Source of the DNA: Desulfomicrobium escambiense DSM 10707
GTDB taxonomy: Bacteria; Desulfobacterota; Desulfovibrionia; Desulfovibrionales; Desulfomicrobiaceae
Assembly: GCF_000428825.1 (NCBI RefSeq)
Contig: NZ_AUAR01000020.1
Location: 1-64,000 of the forward strand
Direction of reading: 5' to 3'
Length of the DNA stretch: 64,000 nucleotides
Position numbers and translations under genes: made by a program. Below are positions 1,467 through 10,348 of the stretch, in pieces; within the stretch, counting starts at the first letter, position 1; each line of letters opens with the position of its first letter. The notes under the pieces were generated by a model. The model was not told the DNA's origin and did not search any database. It saw only the letters and a program-made list of their open reading frames with translations.

Positions 1467-3416
1467 TCATCGCATGTCGCCAGGGACGAGCTCGCGGCTC
1501 TTCCTGGCCTGGATGTCCTCCAGAAATACGTCCCAGCCCCGTACGCCGCCGCGGTCGCCGCGGGCCACCCTGATGGAGCGGGAGGTCCAGGGGGTGGTGC
1601 CGTCCTTGCAGCGGATGCGGCATTCGAAACCCGTGATCTCCTCCCTGGCCAGGATCTGCTCCTGCAGGGCGGCCCAGTCCGAAGGCGAGGCGAAGGCCTC
1701 GGATTCGGAGTGCACGGAGCGCATCATCTGCCTGGCCGAGGCGTAGCCGTGCAGGCGGGCGTAGCGGGCGTTCATGCGCACGAACCGTCCCGCGGCGTCC
1801 ACGGTGCACAGGCCGATGGGCGCGGACTCGTACATGTCCTGGAGCTGCGCGTCGCTGTCCAGGGCGATGCGGGACTGCCGCTTGGCGGTGATGTCGCGCA
1901 CGAAGACGATGACGCCGGTGACCTCGTCGCCGCTCATGTCCCGGATGGGGTAGGCGCTGAATTCGATGGAGCGCACGGACGTCGACGACGTTACCTCCAG
2001 CACCTCGAACTCGTTGCGGCCCGTGCGCAGGGACCTGACCGCAGGGCAGCGTGCGCAGCACTCGCCGAGCTGGTGGAAGGCCTGGTGGCACTTCTTGCCC
2101 ACGGGGTTGAAACCTTCGGCGTACCAGCGGACCATGGTCGGGTTGGCGTAACGCACCGTCATGTCCGGGGCGAGGACGCTGATGCCCTCCTCGATGCTGC
2201 CCAGGAGCGTTTCGAGGAAGGCTTCGTTGGCCAGGATCTGTTCCTCGATGGCCTTGCGCTGGCTCATGTCGTGGTGGGTGCCCGTAATGCGCGTGGCCGC
2301 GCCCGTGGCGCCCTTCTCCATGAGCTTGCCGCGGGAGTGGATCCACTTGTAGGACCCGTCCTTGCACAGCAGGCGGTACTCGAAATCGTAGAACTCGGTT
2401 TCGCCGCGCACGTGCGCCGCCAGCGTGTCCATGGCCGGGCCGCGGTCTTCGGGGTGGAGCATGCGCTCCCACTGGTCGATGGTCAGTTCGAATTCGTTGC
2501 CGGCGTACCCGAGCATGGCCATCCACATGGGCGAGTGCTGCACCCGGCCCGTGGGGATGTCGTAGTCCCAGACCGCGCCGCGCGAGCCTTCCAGGGCGAA
2601 TTTCCAGCGTTCCTCGCTGGCTTCCAGGGCCTGCCTGGCCTGCAGCAGTTCCGTGACTTCGAACTGGAGGTGCACGATCTGGGTCACGGTCCCATCCGCC
2701 GCCAGCACCGGGGCGCTGCGGAGCAGCCAGTGCCGGCCGTCGATGCTGCGGTATGTCCCGTTCTGGATGGTGCGCGTCTTGAGCGCCCGCCAGGCCGTGC
2801 AGTAGGGGTTGGCTTCGGAGCCGTCTGGGCCCAGCTGGCCGCAATTGCCCGTGCCGAGCTGGTGCATGAGGCTCGACGGGTTGTCCGTGACCGGGGTGTT
2901 GGACCAGACGATGCGGAACTGGGTGTCGAGGAGGACCACGGACACGTCCCGCAGGTTCTGGAGGATGGTGCTCTGCACCTTCTGCTGTTCGCGCAGCTGA
3001 CCTTCGAGAACCTGCCGCTGCCGGATCTCGTCGCGCAGCAGCCTGGTCAGCTCTTCGAGTTCGTTCTTGCGCTGGGCCAGACGCTGGGTGGGCGAGTCGG
3101 CGGTCAGTCCGGCCATCACGGACTGAAGGGAGACCAGGGACTCCTGGAAGGCTGCAGGGTTGGAGCGTATCAGGGCGGTGGTGCGCTCCGAGAGCTTCCC
3201 GGCCAGGGCCATGAGCACTTCGGGGTCTTCGCCCAGCAGGCGTGCCAGGGCGTGGATGCGCTCCTCGGTCAGGGGGGCGTTCTCACCGCGTTCGAGCTTG
3301 CTGAGGTAGGAGTGGTGGATGCCGATGCGCTTGGCCACACTGCGGATGGAATAGCCCGAGTGTTTGGCGGACAGCGCCTCCCTGCGCTCTTTGACGTAAC
3401 TTCCTAGGGAGCTCAT
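1467..3416 (-). CDS. XRE-family regulator with four PAS domains
   Basis: Predicted cytoplasmic sensor-regulator of 649 residues. An XRE helix-turn-helix (about residues 3-60, with the motif SYLSKLERGENAP) is followed by a coiled coil (about 110-150) and four PAS domains (about 150-270, 270-390, 395-515 and 518-640). There is no kinase, GGDEF, EAL or sigma-54 domain, so DNA binding is the only visible output. The third PAS holds a cysteine cluster (GECCARCP) and the first also has two cysteines, which could bind metal, a cluster or respond to redox state. The ATG at 3416 is preferred because the helix-turn-helix begins there; an upstream TTG at 3452 would overlap the predicted -35 box. No Shine-Dalgarno sequence precedes the ATG. 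The signal and targets are unknown; shared promoter sequence suggests it controls itself and the divergent kinase genes. Confidence 0.9.
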   Translation of the reverse strand: MSSLGSYVKERREALSAKHSGYSIRSVAKRIGIHHSYLSKLERGENAPLTEERIHALARLLGEDPEVLMALAGKLSERTTALIRSNPAAFQESLVSLQSVMAGLTADSPTQRLAQRKNELEELTRLLRDEIRQRQVLEGQLREQQKVQSTILQNLRDVSVVLLDTQFRIVWSNTPVTDNPSSLMHQLGTGNCGQLGPDGSEANPYCTAWRALKTRTIQNGTYRSIDGRHWLLRSAPVLAADGTVTQIVHLQFEVTELLQARQALEASEERWKFALEGSRGAVWDYDIPTGRVQHSPMWMAMLGYAGNEFELTIDQWERMLHPEDRGPAMDTLAAHVRGETEFYDFEYRLLCKDGSYKWIHSRGKLMEKGATGAATRITGTHHDMSQRKAIEEQILANEAFLETLLGSIEEGISVLAPDMTVRYANPTMVRWYAEGFNPVGKKCHQAFHQLGECCARCPAVRSLRTGRNEFEVLEVTSSTSVRSIEFSAYPIRDMSGDEVTGVIVFVRDITAKRQSRIALDSDAQLQDMYESAPIGLCTVDAAGRFVRMNARYARLHGYASARQMMRSVHSESEAFASPSDWAALQEQILAREEITGFECRIRCKDGTTPWTSRSIRVARGDRGGVRGWDVFLEDIQARKSRELVPGDMR

Positions 3417-3422
3417 GTGTCT

Positions 3423-3452
3423 ATTATGAAGTAGCCATAATTTCCGGTGCAA
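3423..3452 (-). promoter_or_regulatory. Predicted promoter and palindromic operator of the XRE-PAS gene
   Basis: On the minus strand TTGCAC (3447-3452) and CATAAT (3423-3428) are separated by 18 bases. The -10 box is one arm of a perfect palindrome, ATTATG-N7-CATAAT (3423-3441), fitting repression by a dimeric regulator. Transcription would start at about 3416, the A of the start codon. TGGCTAC-N2-CATAAT recurs in the promoter facing the other way. Confidence 0.5.
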
Positions 3453-3654
3453 GCATTATTTCGTCTGACACGCCACGTTTGCAAAAAATAATCAGGACGG
3501 ATGTTGTTTTCAAAAATTCGCATGGTTGAGATGCTGCTGCCGTCATACGCTCTCGTCCGGGCCGAGATCGCCTTGGGCTGAAATTGGTAGCCGGCCTGGG
3601 CCGCAGTGGTCATCGGCGGGTCGACAAAAGTTGTGCTCGCGGAGCAAAATTACA

Positions 3655-3684
3655 TTGACCATGGAAAAGTGGCTACCACATAAT
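3655..3684 (+). promoter_or_regulatory. Predicted promoter of the hybrid kinase operon
   Basis: TTGACC (3655-3660) and CATAAT (3679-3684) with an 18-base spacer that contains TGGCTAC (3670-3676). It matches the divergent XRE-PAS promoter at 20 of 30 aligned positions. The spacer also carries the small palindrome GTGGCTACCAC. Confidence 0.5.
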
Positions 3685-3827
3685 CGTCATCAGGGGCGCC
3701 TGGTGACTGCCGAAGCCGGAACGAGTCCAGGTAGGCCCTCGGACGGGTCTTTTCTGATGGATGGCTTCCCGCCGGCATCCGGAGCATCATGCCAGGGACT
3801 GTAACGCAGCAAAGGACGGACGCGACC

Positions 3828-6676
3828 ATGGAAGGACTGTTCAGGAGCAAGGCGTGCCCCGAGGGCGTCCGCACGAGCGCCGGCCCGTCGCAGCCAGGGA
3901 CCTGCGGCGTTCCCTCTGCGCGTCGGGTCGCGACCGCCCTTTGGCACGAGGTGCAGGGTGCGGCCACGCCGTGGACCAGGGTGCGGCCGCTCAGGGGCCT
4001 GGCGGCGGTCCTGCTGTGCGCGTTTTTTGCAGTCAGTGCCTGGGGCGGGGGGCGTCATGCGCTTCTGATCAGCTCCTACCATCCGGGATTCCCCACGTTC
4101 TTCGACCAGGCCGGCGGACTTCGCGAGGCCCTGGAGCCTGCCGGGGTGGCCCTGGACGTCGAGTTCATGGACACCAAGCGTTTTCCCGTGAGCGAGGCCT
4201 CCGCGCGCTTTCTCGATTCCCTGCGTTTCAAGCTGGCCGCGCTTCCGGCCTACGATGTCGTGGTCACGGCCGACGACGCGGCCCTGCATTTCGTCCTGGA
4301 CCACGGGCGCGAGCTGTTCCCTGGCCTGAACGTGGTCTTCTTCGGGGTCAACGATCAGGACCTCGCTCACGGCCTGAGCGGTTCCCAAGGGTTCACCGGG
4401 ATCATCGAATCCGTGTCCATGGGCGAGACCCTGCAGGACATCCGGTCGCTGCGGCCGGGAGCCCGGGGGGTGCACGCCGTGGTCGACGGTCAGCCCGGGG
4501 GCCGCGGTGACCTGAGGACGTTCCTCTCGCAGCAGGGTCGCATCCGGGACCTCGAACTGCATGTCCTCGACCTGGACACAATGTCCTGGGACGAACTCGG
4601 CAGCAGGCTGTCCGCCGTGCCGAAAAGCGACGCGATCCTGCTGCTCTCGGCCTACAGAGACCGGCAGGGGGAGGGCCGTTCCTTCGAGGACGGCCTCGGG
4701 TTCATCCTGCGGCATGCCGGGGCGCCCGTGTTCCATCTCTGGGAGCACGGGATCGGTCAGGGCATCGTCGGGGGCAAGGTCATCTCCCACCGGGAACAAG
4801 GCCGTCTCGCCGGCGGGCTCGTGCTGCGCATTCTGGGCGGCGAGGCGGCGCGCACCCTTCCGGTCATCGAAGGCGACGACGCCAACAGACAGGTCTTCGA
4901 TCATGCCGCGCTCACGCGCTTCGGCATCGACGAGGCGCTCCTGCCGGATGGGAGCGACGTCCGGGGCCGGCCCGTGTCCCTCATCTCGCGCTACATGCCG
5001 CACATCCTGCTGGCCGGGGCCGTGGTCTGCGTGCTGGTGACCCTGGTCGCGGCCCTGTTGCAGCACGTGTTCCGCCTGCGCAGCGCCAAGGCCAGCCTCA
5101 TGGACAGCGAGGCGCGCTACAAGGCCCTGTTCAATGCCAACGCGGACGGTATCCTGGTGGCCGAAAGGGCCGGAGGGCGCTTTGTTTTCGCCAACCCGGC
5201 GGTGTGCCGGATGTTTGGCTACTCGGAAGGGGAATTCCTCTCCCTGGGCGTGGAGGACATCCACCCGCGCGAGCATCTGGCGGAGGTTTTCGCCAACTTC
5301 GATCAGCAGTCCAGGGGACAAAAGGATCTTGCCGAGGGCTTACCGTGCCTGTGCCGGGATGGGGGAGTCTTCACGGCCGACATCAGGAGCTTTCCCCTTG
5401 AGGTCGACGGGACGCCGTGCCTGGTCGGCCTGTTCCGCGACGTGACCGAGCGCAGCCAGGTGCTCGAAGCCCTGTGCCAGGCCCGGGACGCGGCCGAGGC
5501 GGCCAACCGCAGCAAGTCGGAATTCCTGGCCAACATGAGCCACGAAATCCGCACGCCCCTGAACGGGATCCTCGGCATGCTGCAGCTCCTGGAGGGCCTG
5601 GAACAGTCCGTCGAGCAGCGGCAGTACGTGCAGATGGCGGCGAACTCCGCCCGGCGGCTGACCGGGCTTTTGAGCGACATCCTGGACCTTTCGCGCATCG
5701 AATCCGGCCGGTTGGCCGTCTGCGAACGGCCTTTCGAAGTGCAGGAAGTCTGCGCCTCCATCGAGGAGCTTTTCTCCCAGGCGGCCGACAGGAAGGGCGT
5801 GCGCCTGGAGGTGGTGGCGGCCGCCGGACTGCCCGGCCGGTTGACGGGGGATGTCCTGCGGTTGCGCCAGATTCTCTTCAATCTGGTCGGGAACGCCGTG
5901 AAGTTCACCTCGGACGGGTTCGTGCGCGTGGACATGGAGTCGCTGGGCCAGGACGCGTCCGGGCGGGAGCGGATCCTGTTCTGCGTCGGCGACAGCGGGC
6001 CCGGCATGGACGACGCCTTCCTGTCCAAGGCGTTCGAGCCGTTCGTCCAGGCCGAGAAGGAGTATGTCCGTCAGCACCAGGGCGCCGGGCTCGGTCTGGC
6101 CATCGTCAAGCGCCTGGTGCACATGTTGGGCGGGACCTTGGCCATCGACAACGCTTCGGGTGGCACGACGGTCTGCTTCACTCTGCCCATGGCGGCCGCG
6201 GGAGAGGCCTGTGCGGCGTATGGCGAGGAGGCGCCTCCGGAGCCGGACTCCCTCAGAATCCTGCTGGCCGAGGACGATCAGGTCAGCGTGTTCGCCGCCC
6301 GCCGCCTCCTGGAACGGATCGGCCACGCCGTCGTCTGCGTCGAGAACGGGCGGCAGGCCCTGGATGCCCTGCGCGGCGGGGAGTTCGACGTCGTGATCAT
6401 GGATGTCCAGATGCCGGTCATGGACGGGCTGCAGGCCGCGCGGCTGATCCGGGCCGACGCCGGCCTTGGGTCCATGGCCAGGGTGCCGATCATCGCCATG
6501 ACCGCCTACGCCATGAGCGGCGACCGCGACATATGCCTGGCGGCGGGCATGAACGACTACATCTCCAAGCCGGTGGGCGCCCGCGAGCTGAAGCGGGCGT
6601 TGACCTGCGCGGTCCCGTCCGGGTCGGGACGGAGCGGGTTAGGGGAGCAACGCACAATTGGCGATGAGGGCGCGTC

Positions 6677-6683
<7 letters not shown>
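3828..6683 (+). CDS. Hybrid histidine kinase with periplasmic ABC-substrate-binding-like sensor
   Basis: Membrane hybrid kinase of about 951 residues. The order is: N-terminal membrane helix or signal (about 54-75), a periplasmic domain of some 310 residues resembling the ABC_sub_bind family (begins near HALLISSYHPGFP), a second membrane helix (about 390-412), one PAS (about 427-541), HisKA with the phospho-accepting His in NMSHEIRTPLNG, HATPase_c (NLVGNAVKFT, GLGLAIV) and a receiver with Asp in VIMDVQMPVMDG. Sensing is therefore outside the cell membrane, possibly of a small solute; the ligand is unknown. The start is uncertain: ATG 3828 has AAGGA 11 bases upstream, but ATG 3789 or GTG 3981 (right at the signal peptide) are possible. 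It overlaps the next kinase by 7 bases, so the two are surely co-transcribed. Confidence 0.88.
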
Positions 6684-9925
<3,242 letters not shown>

Positions 9926-9952: not shown

Positions 9953-10348
9953 ATGCGAATTCTGATTGTCGAGGACGATTTCGTCGGCCGCAAGATCATG
10001 CACAAGCTGCTTATGGAGTACGGGGAATGTGACATCGCCGTGGACGGGGCCGAGGCGGTCAAGGCCTTCGACCTGGCCTGGGAGGCGGGGAACCCCTACG
10101 ACGTCCTGTTCCTGGACATCATGATGCCCAACATGAGCGGCCACGAGGCCCTGAACATCATCAGGAGCAAGGAGAAGGAGCGGGGCGTGCCGCTGTCCAG
10201 GGAGGTCAAGGTGATCATGACCAGCGCCCTGGACGACGTGAAGAACGTGACCCAGTCCTTTTTCCAGGGCGGGGCGTCGGCCTATCTGGTCAAGCCCATC
10301 GAGCGTCGCAAGATCATCGACGAGCTGCGCAAGCTCGAGCTGATCTGA
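9953..10348 (+). CDS. Stand-alone CheY-like response regulator
   Basis: Single receiver domain of 131 residues, start ATG after an AGAGG ribosome site, 27 bases downstream of the PocR kinase. The acidic pocket (LIVEDD), the phospho-accepting Asp (VLFLDIMMPNMSG) and the conserved Lys (LVKPIE) are all present. There is no output domain, so it probably acts by protein contact or as a phosphate shuttle in the relay started by the two hybrid kinases. It converges with cheB across a 9-base gap. Confidence 0.92.
   Translation: MRILIVEDDFVGRKIMHKLLMEYGECDIAVDGAEAVKAFDLAWEAGNPYDVLFLDIMMPNMSGHEALNIIRSKEKERGVPLSREVKVIMTSALDDVKNVTQSFFQGGASAYLVKPIERRKIIDELRKLELI

Follow-up and report, generated by a model that had tools for sequence, protein, structure and literature searches.

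Twin divergent promoters of an XRE-PAS gene and a sensor-kinase operon in Desulfomicrobium escambiense as candidate targets of the XRE-PAS protein

Why do two promoters that face away from each other, one before a regulator gene and the other before an operon of sensor kinases, carry so similar a sequence, and which protein would read it? The question arises in the window analysed here, a 64,000-nucleotide stretch of the genome of Desulfomicrobium escambiense DSM 10707, in which the gene for an XRE-PAS regulator, on the minus strand, diverges from an operon on the plus strand for two hybrid kinases, the second overlapping the first; a gene for a single-domain receiver is probably its last member (Table 1). 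The original prediction, made from the letters of the window, held that both promoters contain TTG-N12-TGGCTAC-N2-CATAAT at identical spacing, with 20 of 30 positions equal; both would be bound by the XRE-PAS protein, which would control its own gene as well as the kinase operon. The common pattern is confirmed in every respect at the coordinates in Table 1, with 18 nt between the hexamers on either side. The genome search that had been suggested, for TGGCTAC-N2-CATAAT, returned exactly two copies of the exact 15-mer (TGGCTACNNCATAAT) in the 3.78 Mb genome (G000 in our site searches), both in the window and both at these promoters. The claim of binding finds support in comparative evidence, namely footprints of conservation at nine of nine orthologous loci, elements before paralogous genes, a link between the element and the type of recognition helix, and a dyad. 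We propose, with a probability of about 0.8, that the XRE-PAS protein binds both promoters and most likely represses its own gene, which is predicted to be leaderless, and the divergent kinase operon.

Table 1. Genes and promoter elements at the XRE-PAS locus, in window coordinates.
Feature	Position	Strand	Basis or remark
XRE-PAS regulator gene, 649 aa	1467..3416	-	Pfam: N-terminal HTH and several PAS
ATG start of the regulator	3414..3416	-	Follows the proposed -10 by 6 nt; its A is the predicted +1
Candidate operator of the XRE promoter, TGGCTACTTCATAATAGACA	3418..3437	-	5/7 dyad positions; reaches from the spacer to just before the ATG
-10 CATAAT, XRE promoter	3423..3428	-	Sequence
TGGCTAC, XRE side	3437-3431	-	Sequence
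-35 TTGCAC, XRE promoter	3447..3452	-	Weak, 3/6 consensus bases; 18-nt spacer
GTCNNACR element 5′ of the XRE -35, GTCAGACG	3462..3469	-	9/9 orthologous XRE promoters
GGTAGCC between the promoters	3586..3592		May be a further half site; conserved in the window clade only
-35 TTGACC, kinase promoter	3655..3660	+	Sequence, alignment, consensus scan
TGGCTAC, kinase side	3670-3676	+	Sequence
Candidate operator of the kinase promoter, TGGCTACCACATAATCGTCA	3670..3689	+	4/7 dyad positions; weak
-10 CATAAT, kinase promoter	3679..3684	+	Sequence, consensus scan
Hybrid sensor kinase 1 (PAS, HisKA, HATPase_c, receiver)	3789..6683	+	Pfam; first in the target operon
Hybrid sensor kinase 2 (PocR, PAS, HisKA, HATPase_c, receiver)	6677..9925	+	Pfam; overlaps kinase 1
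Single-domain response regulator (receiver)	9953..10348	+	Pfam

The HTH of the regulator matches HTH_31 (E 3.7e-11) and HTH_3 (E 4.2e-09), both above the Pfam cut-offs, which places the protein in the XRE family. At E 0.001 its only Pfam families are HTH and PAS, with no kinase or other output domain and no cupin. In the structure comparison the fold of the HTH matches those of P22 c2, SinR and the 434 repressor, and DNA complexes of all three are among the structural matches. The AlphaFold model, which rests on a three-sequence alignment and has a mean pLDDT of 71, contains helices at residues 24–31 and 35–42. The recognition helix starts H34-H35-S36-Y-L-S, with residues 34–36 at the start of the third predicted helix (35–42; pLDDT about 82 for residues 31–40). 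One PAS domain holds cysteines 443, 453, 454 and 457 (C-x9-CC-x2-C), kept in nine of nine orthologues; this domain is the best candidate for the sensor, and from the cysteines one might guess at a redox or metal signal. A similar C-PC-C motif is seen by eye in two PAS-like proteins of genus g22.

The chance expectation for the exact 15-mer is about 0.1 per genome under equal base use, for a pattern that was itself derived from these copies. There is no wider family of near-copies: at two or fewer mismatches the genome has 19 matches and the reversed pattern also 19, and in a search of the window genome at three or fewer mismatches (4 matches against 10 for the control) no further sites stand out. 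A one-mismatch copy (G000:C17:26452) was rejected as an extra site, as it sits in GC-rich, coding-looking sequence. A consensus scan of positions 3380–3800 lists the kinase promoter, with 10 of 12 consensus bases; the proposed XRE promoter is absent from it. The sigma-70 consensus, beyond the form used in the scan, is textbook background. For the XRE gene the scan offers another promoter-like match, TTGCAA-N18-AATAAT at 3484–3455, with low conservation in the −35 (0 of 6 columns invariant); were it used, the regulator mRNA would have a leader. The intergenic DNA from 3420 to 3700 has no match in the plasmid collection, and the scan of named genome contigs returned two close relatives and one weak match.

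Orthologues of the regulator occur in 9 of the 22 family genomes, its own included, all within the genus, and both promoters are kept at every one of these loci. Averaged over the columns of the nine-way alignment, conservation is 0.86 between the XRE −35 and the ATG (3417–3452) and 0.89 at 3453–3471, so the XRE-side block extends to 3471; over the kinase promoter (3655–3689) it is 0.88, in the middle (3472–3654) 0.54, and past the kinase promoter (3690–3745) 0.47. The divergent gene varies between species in its N-terminal sensor, with the promoter unchanged. As judged by reading translations, most of which end at 1500 nt, its product has the N-terminal sensor of the window type in G002, G012, G013 and G015 and another N-terminus in G001, G003 and G005; in G011 it is a short receiver protein. 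Three paralogues whose neighbours differ (L018, L019 and L020) have TGGCTAC (TGTCTAC in L019), then 14 nt, then the ATG, so that the element or a one-base variant stands at an equal distance from the start codon in all three. Over 16 genomes of the genus the bipartite pattern gives 23 matches and its reversed control none, and it is found in the nine regulator-bearing genomes and in one of the seven others (G008, site L029), where no ORF of more than 90 aa begins within 200 nt downstream.

What, then, would the protein recognise? The original prediction had singled out the palindrome ATTATG-N7-CATAAT in one promoter and a third GGTAGCC between the two, and both are there, the former on the XRE side. 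The palindrome is whole only in the window genome, however; it has lost one base in L010 and more in L017, and is absent in the other six orthologues. For this want of conservation it is ruled out as the operator, and since another dyad is found in the relatives we regard it as incidental. Conservation of the middle GGTAGCC is likewise confined to the window clade (GGTAGCC in L010, GGTAGTC in L017). From sequence comparison, the true dyad of the candidate operators is TGGCTAY-N6-RTAGCCA, which lies over the −10; it begins 9 nt upstream of the hexamer, spans it and stops 5 nt after. Such symmetry is as expected for an XRE dimer, which would recognise the dyad through the recognition helix that starts with HHS. 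On the kinase side the dyad improves from 4 of 7 positions in the window to 6 of 7 in the G005 orthologue. Some relatives outside the genus have the element as a complete palindrome. In G148, TGGCTACCATATAGTAGCCA precedes a Cache-MCP gene and 14 of 14 arm bases pair; such copies also precede a Cache-PAS-GGDEF-EAL gene in G267 (TGGCTATCATATGATAGCCA) and the XRE gene in G106 (TGGCTACTATACCGTAGCCA).

The spacing of the arms was computed over 58 collected sites, 31 of them distinct. For spacers of 0–15, matching of the arms peaks at a spacer of 6 (4.87 of 7), with 2.45 as the next best value. The search pattern fixed only the TTG of the −35, the first arm and part of the −10, leaving operator positions 15–19 free, so that these positions serve as an internal control that limits selection. 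There the second arm (AGCCA) is matched at 3.57 of 5 positions in 21 distinct associated sites and at 0.82 of 5 in 17 distinct unassociated ones, the sites having been sorted by neighbouring gene and not blind (Mann–Whitney p about 9e-8; as the species are related, p-values overstate independence).

According to our proposal, two sigma-70-type promoters would each carry an XRE-PAS operator over the −10 region. Because the operator covers the −10, binding would most likely block RNA polymerase; autorepression, together with repression of the two hybrid kinases and the receiver, would follow, the position of the operator being the sole ground on which repression is named as the most likely outcome. 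Release of the protein would follow when its PAS domains sense their signal. The ATG of the regulator follows the end of the proposed −10 by 6 nt in nine of nine orthologues, three of three paralogues and G201, and from this distance a leaderless mRNA is predicted; in g22 and g24 the XRE gene starts further downstream of the promoter. The TTG at 3452 was rejected as a start codon, given an in-frame TGA inside the operator of five orthologues (L012–L016).

Alternatively, the XRE-PAS protein might act at the same two sites as an activator of one or both promoters, or switch between the two modes with its signal. The −35 of the XRE promoter is weak, and a second element upstream, GTCNNACR, suggests further regulation; moreover, NceR reportedly mediates activation, which shows that XRE activators exist. 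GTCNNACR starts 14–17 nt upstream of the −35 in all nine orthologous XRE promoters (the window and L010–L017) and is also present at 9 of 10 remote sites in the genus (L030, L145–L152), while at that place none is found in the nine kinase-side promoters, the three paralogues or 27 sites outside the genus. A second regulator may bind it, and its position just upstream of a weak −35 suggests that an activator may also act there. As for the XRE-PAS protein itself, the dyad begins within the spacer and lies over the −10 and the start, which speaks against activation. Proteins bound over the −10 or the start usually block polymerase. In addition, the XRE-cupin regulators on core promoters are all inhibitors, as far as the part of the source drawn on here describes them (PMC7901475). 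We consider activation or switching unlikely.

Whether this protein is the one that reads the element can be judged from the wider order. In 297 order genomes, the pattern has 63 matches against 17 for the reversed control (a total summed by hand). By neighbourhood, as classed by the author of this analysis and not blind, 41 of the 63 are associated, 24 of them as promoters of XRE genes of the HHS type and 17 as promoters of signalling genes. The remaining 22 unassociated matches, of which 17 were examined and 5 lay outside the examination, are near the number for the reversed pattern. At E 1e-20, HTH relatives are found in 33 of the 297 genomes. Their recognition helix starts with HHS in 27 genomes and with EPS or EQS in six, and G013 has an HPS paralogue besides. 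Of the HHS-type genomes, 25 of 27 contain the pattern at some place, versus 0 of 6 of the EPS/EQS type (Fisher p 2.5e-5, with the same overstatement), and the two misses, G106 and G201, do have the element, with a −10 or a spacing outside the pattern. Among genomes without an HTH relative at the cut-off the pattern occurs in 27 of 264; seven of these belong to genus g24, which has HHSYLS proteins below the cut-off, and there the matches precede proteins of 327–337 aa with HHSYLSR. The contrast between helix types is repeated within genera, in g5 (G035 versus G074) and in g22 (G184 and G198 versus the HHS-type genomes). Four of four HHSFLS relatives (L055, L066, L072 and L101) lack a site upstream of their own gene and have one only elsewhere in the genome.

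A separate observation concerns the EPS-like relatives. In six sequences (L058, L071, L097–L100), two of them near-identical, a dyad near TGTGTA-N8-TACACA is apparent by eye at the same promoter position, with 4 to 6 of 6 arm positions matching, and in most of the six a hexamer resembling a −10 lies some 6 nt upstream of the ATG. In L161 and L162, also EPS, no dyad of the TGTGTA type is found in the 90 nt read; L164–L167 were outside this reading.

It is fair to ask whether the element is read by some other protein, such as another of the genome's HTH proteins, the XRE-PAS gene being merely one of its targets. Conservation reveals a regulated element and not its binder, and several kinase genes elsewhere in the genus carry the element. 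Nevertheless, the element tracks the helix type of the XRE protein over several genera, and in g22 it precedes the XRE gene even where the HTH protein is short, stands alone and lacks a PAS domain. The near-restriction of the pattern within the genus to regulator-bearing genomes, with a single occurrence among the seven others, points the same way. We hold binding by another protein to be quite improbable.

A third possibility is that TGGCTAC is a part of the core promoter, either an extended −10 or the mark of a special sigma factor, with no regulator involved. In favour of this, the distance to the −35 and −10 is one and the same in nearly every collected site, G201 being the exception. Against it, downstream of the −10 the reverse complement of the first arm is conserved as a second arm, the genome holds only two exact copies, and neither side has a TG directly before the −10; the extended −10 was rejected on inspection, and we give this explanation very little credence. 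Chance similarity of two unrelated promoters, for which it may be said that merely 20 of 30 positions agree in one genome, can practically be dismissed given conservation at nine of nine loci and recurrence across the order.

If the XRE-PAS protein and its HHS-type relatives do bind these elements, the targets read here would, besides XRE genes, mostly be signalling genes. In G035 they are a PocR-PAS hybrid kinase and a receiver-PAS protein, in G148 the Cache-MCP gene and in G267 the Cache-GGDEF-EAL protein, and two further Cache-like genes are recognised by eye (G081 and G267). Over 13 genomes of the genus, a search at three or fewer mismatches shows no overall excess (80 matches against 101 for the reversed control, summed by hand); the eight sites L145–L152 were kept for their recurrence at like places in several genomes, and not for any excess. 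Together with L030 and L046 they make ten extra sites, of which seven precede PAS or hybrid-kinase proteins (L145, L146, L150–L152, L030 and L046), those of L150–L152, L030 and L046 at a distance of about 240–600 nt; L146, L150 and L113, the last of which holds the L046 gene, were analysed with Pfam, and the other genes were judged by eye. L147 precedes a short ORF that by eye looks like a signalling gene, and neither L148 nor L149 has a visible kinase nearby. Genomes of g22 differ in the form of the HTH: some carry it on a histidine kinase, others as a stand-alone protein. In L067 (1489–2823, plus strand) Pfam finds an XRE HTH joined to HisKA and HATPase_c, and by eye the ORF that follows in G225 encodes a PAS-like protein bearing a C-PC-C cluster. 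The sensor targets, the fusion to a kinase and the PAS-like neighbour together tie this HTH to sensing.

It is tempting to extend the proposal to the whole order, tentatively and at somewhat less than even odds. An unnamed family of HHS-type XRE proteins, with or without fused PAS or kinase domains, might control the making of sensors (hybrid kinases, chemoreceptors, c-di-GMP enzymes) through one 20-bp operator, TGGCTAY-N6-RTAGCCA. The operator of EPS-like sisters would have equal geometry but different inner bases (roughly TGTGTA-N8-TACACA), the specificity code would reside in two or three residues of the helix, and many of the genes would be leaderless.

With these comparisons a resemblance between two copies becomes a defined candidate regulator–operator pair. 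It suggests a layer of control in sulfate reducers by which a one-component sensor would decide which two-component and chemotaxis sensors get made. The HHS and EPS variants of the helix look like a specificity code and would be natural material for a specificity switch. In the open full-text literature no description of this pair was found; RegPrecise lay outside that search, and an earlier description is possible. Local XRE regulators with operators over core promoters are already known; the regulon proposed here, made up of sensors, would be unusual.

How does the proposed pair compare with known systems? SinR (3zkc), P22 c2 (2r1j) and the 434 repressor (2or1) have the same HTH fold as the XRE-PAS protein, and its HHS aligns with the residues that open the recognition helix of SinR. 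That helix of SinR reads DNA. Operators and partner proteins of the three differ from those of the XRE-PAS protein, and to our knowledge neither they nor DdrO of Deinococcus have PAS domains. The HTH fold of DdrO is also similar (6rnz, VIA Z 9.4, rmsd 2.4, 66 aligned). In the part of PMC5552922 used here, DdrO is an XRE-family repressor with a palindromic operator before its own gene, and it binds between two divergent regulated genes. It differs, according to the same part of that source, in its 17-bp motif, in being inactivated by IrrE cleavage and in controlling radiation-induced genes (PMC5552922). As described in the portion of PMC7901475 consulted, the XRE-cupin regulators of Pseudomonas have 1–12 sites and mostly one or two targets beside their gene; their sites lie in core promoters, they are inhibitors, and some are autoregulated. 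The XRE-PAS protein is like them in joining an XRE HTH to a sensory domain and in having its putative elements in the core promoters of its own and the adjacent genes. It differs in that their sensory domain is a cupin and their targets, in that same portion, are metabolic (PMC7901475), whereas here the sensory domain is PAS and the candidate targets are sensor kinases and chemoreceptors.
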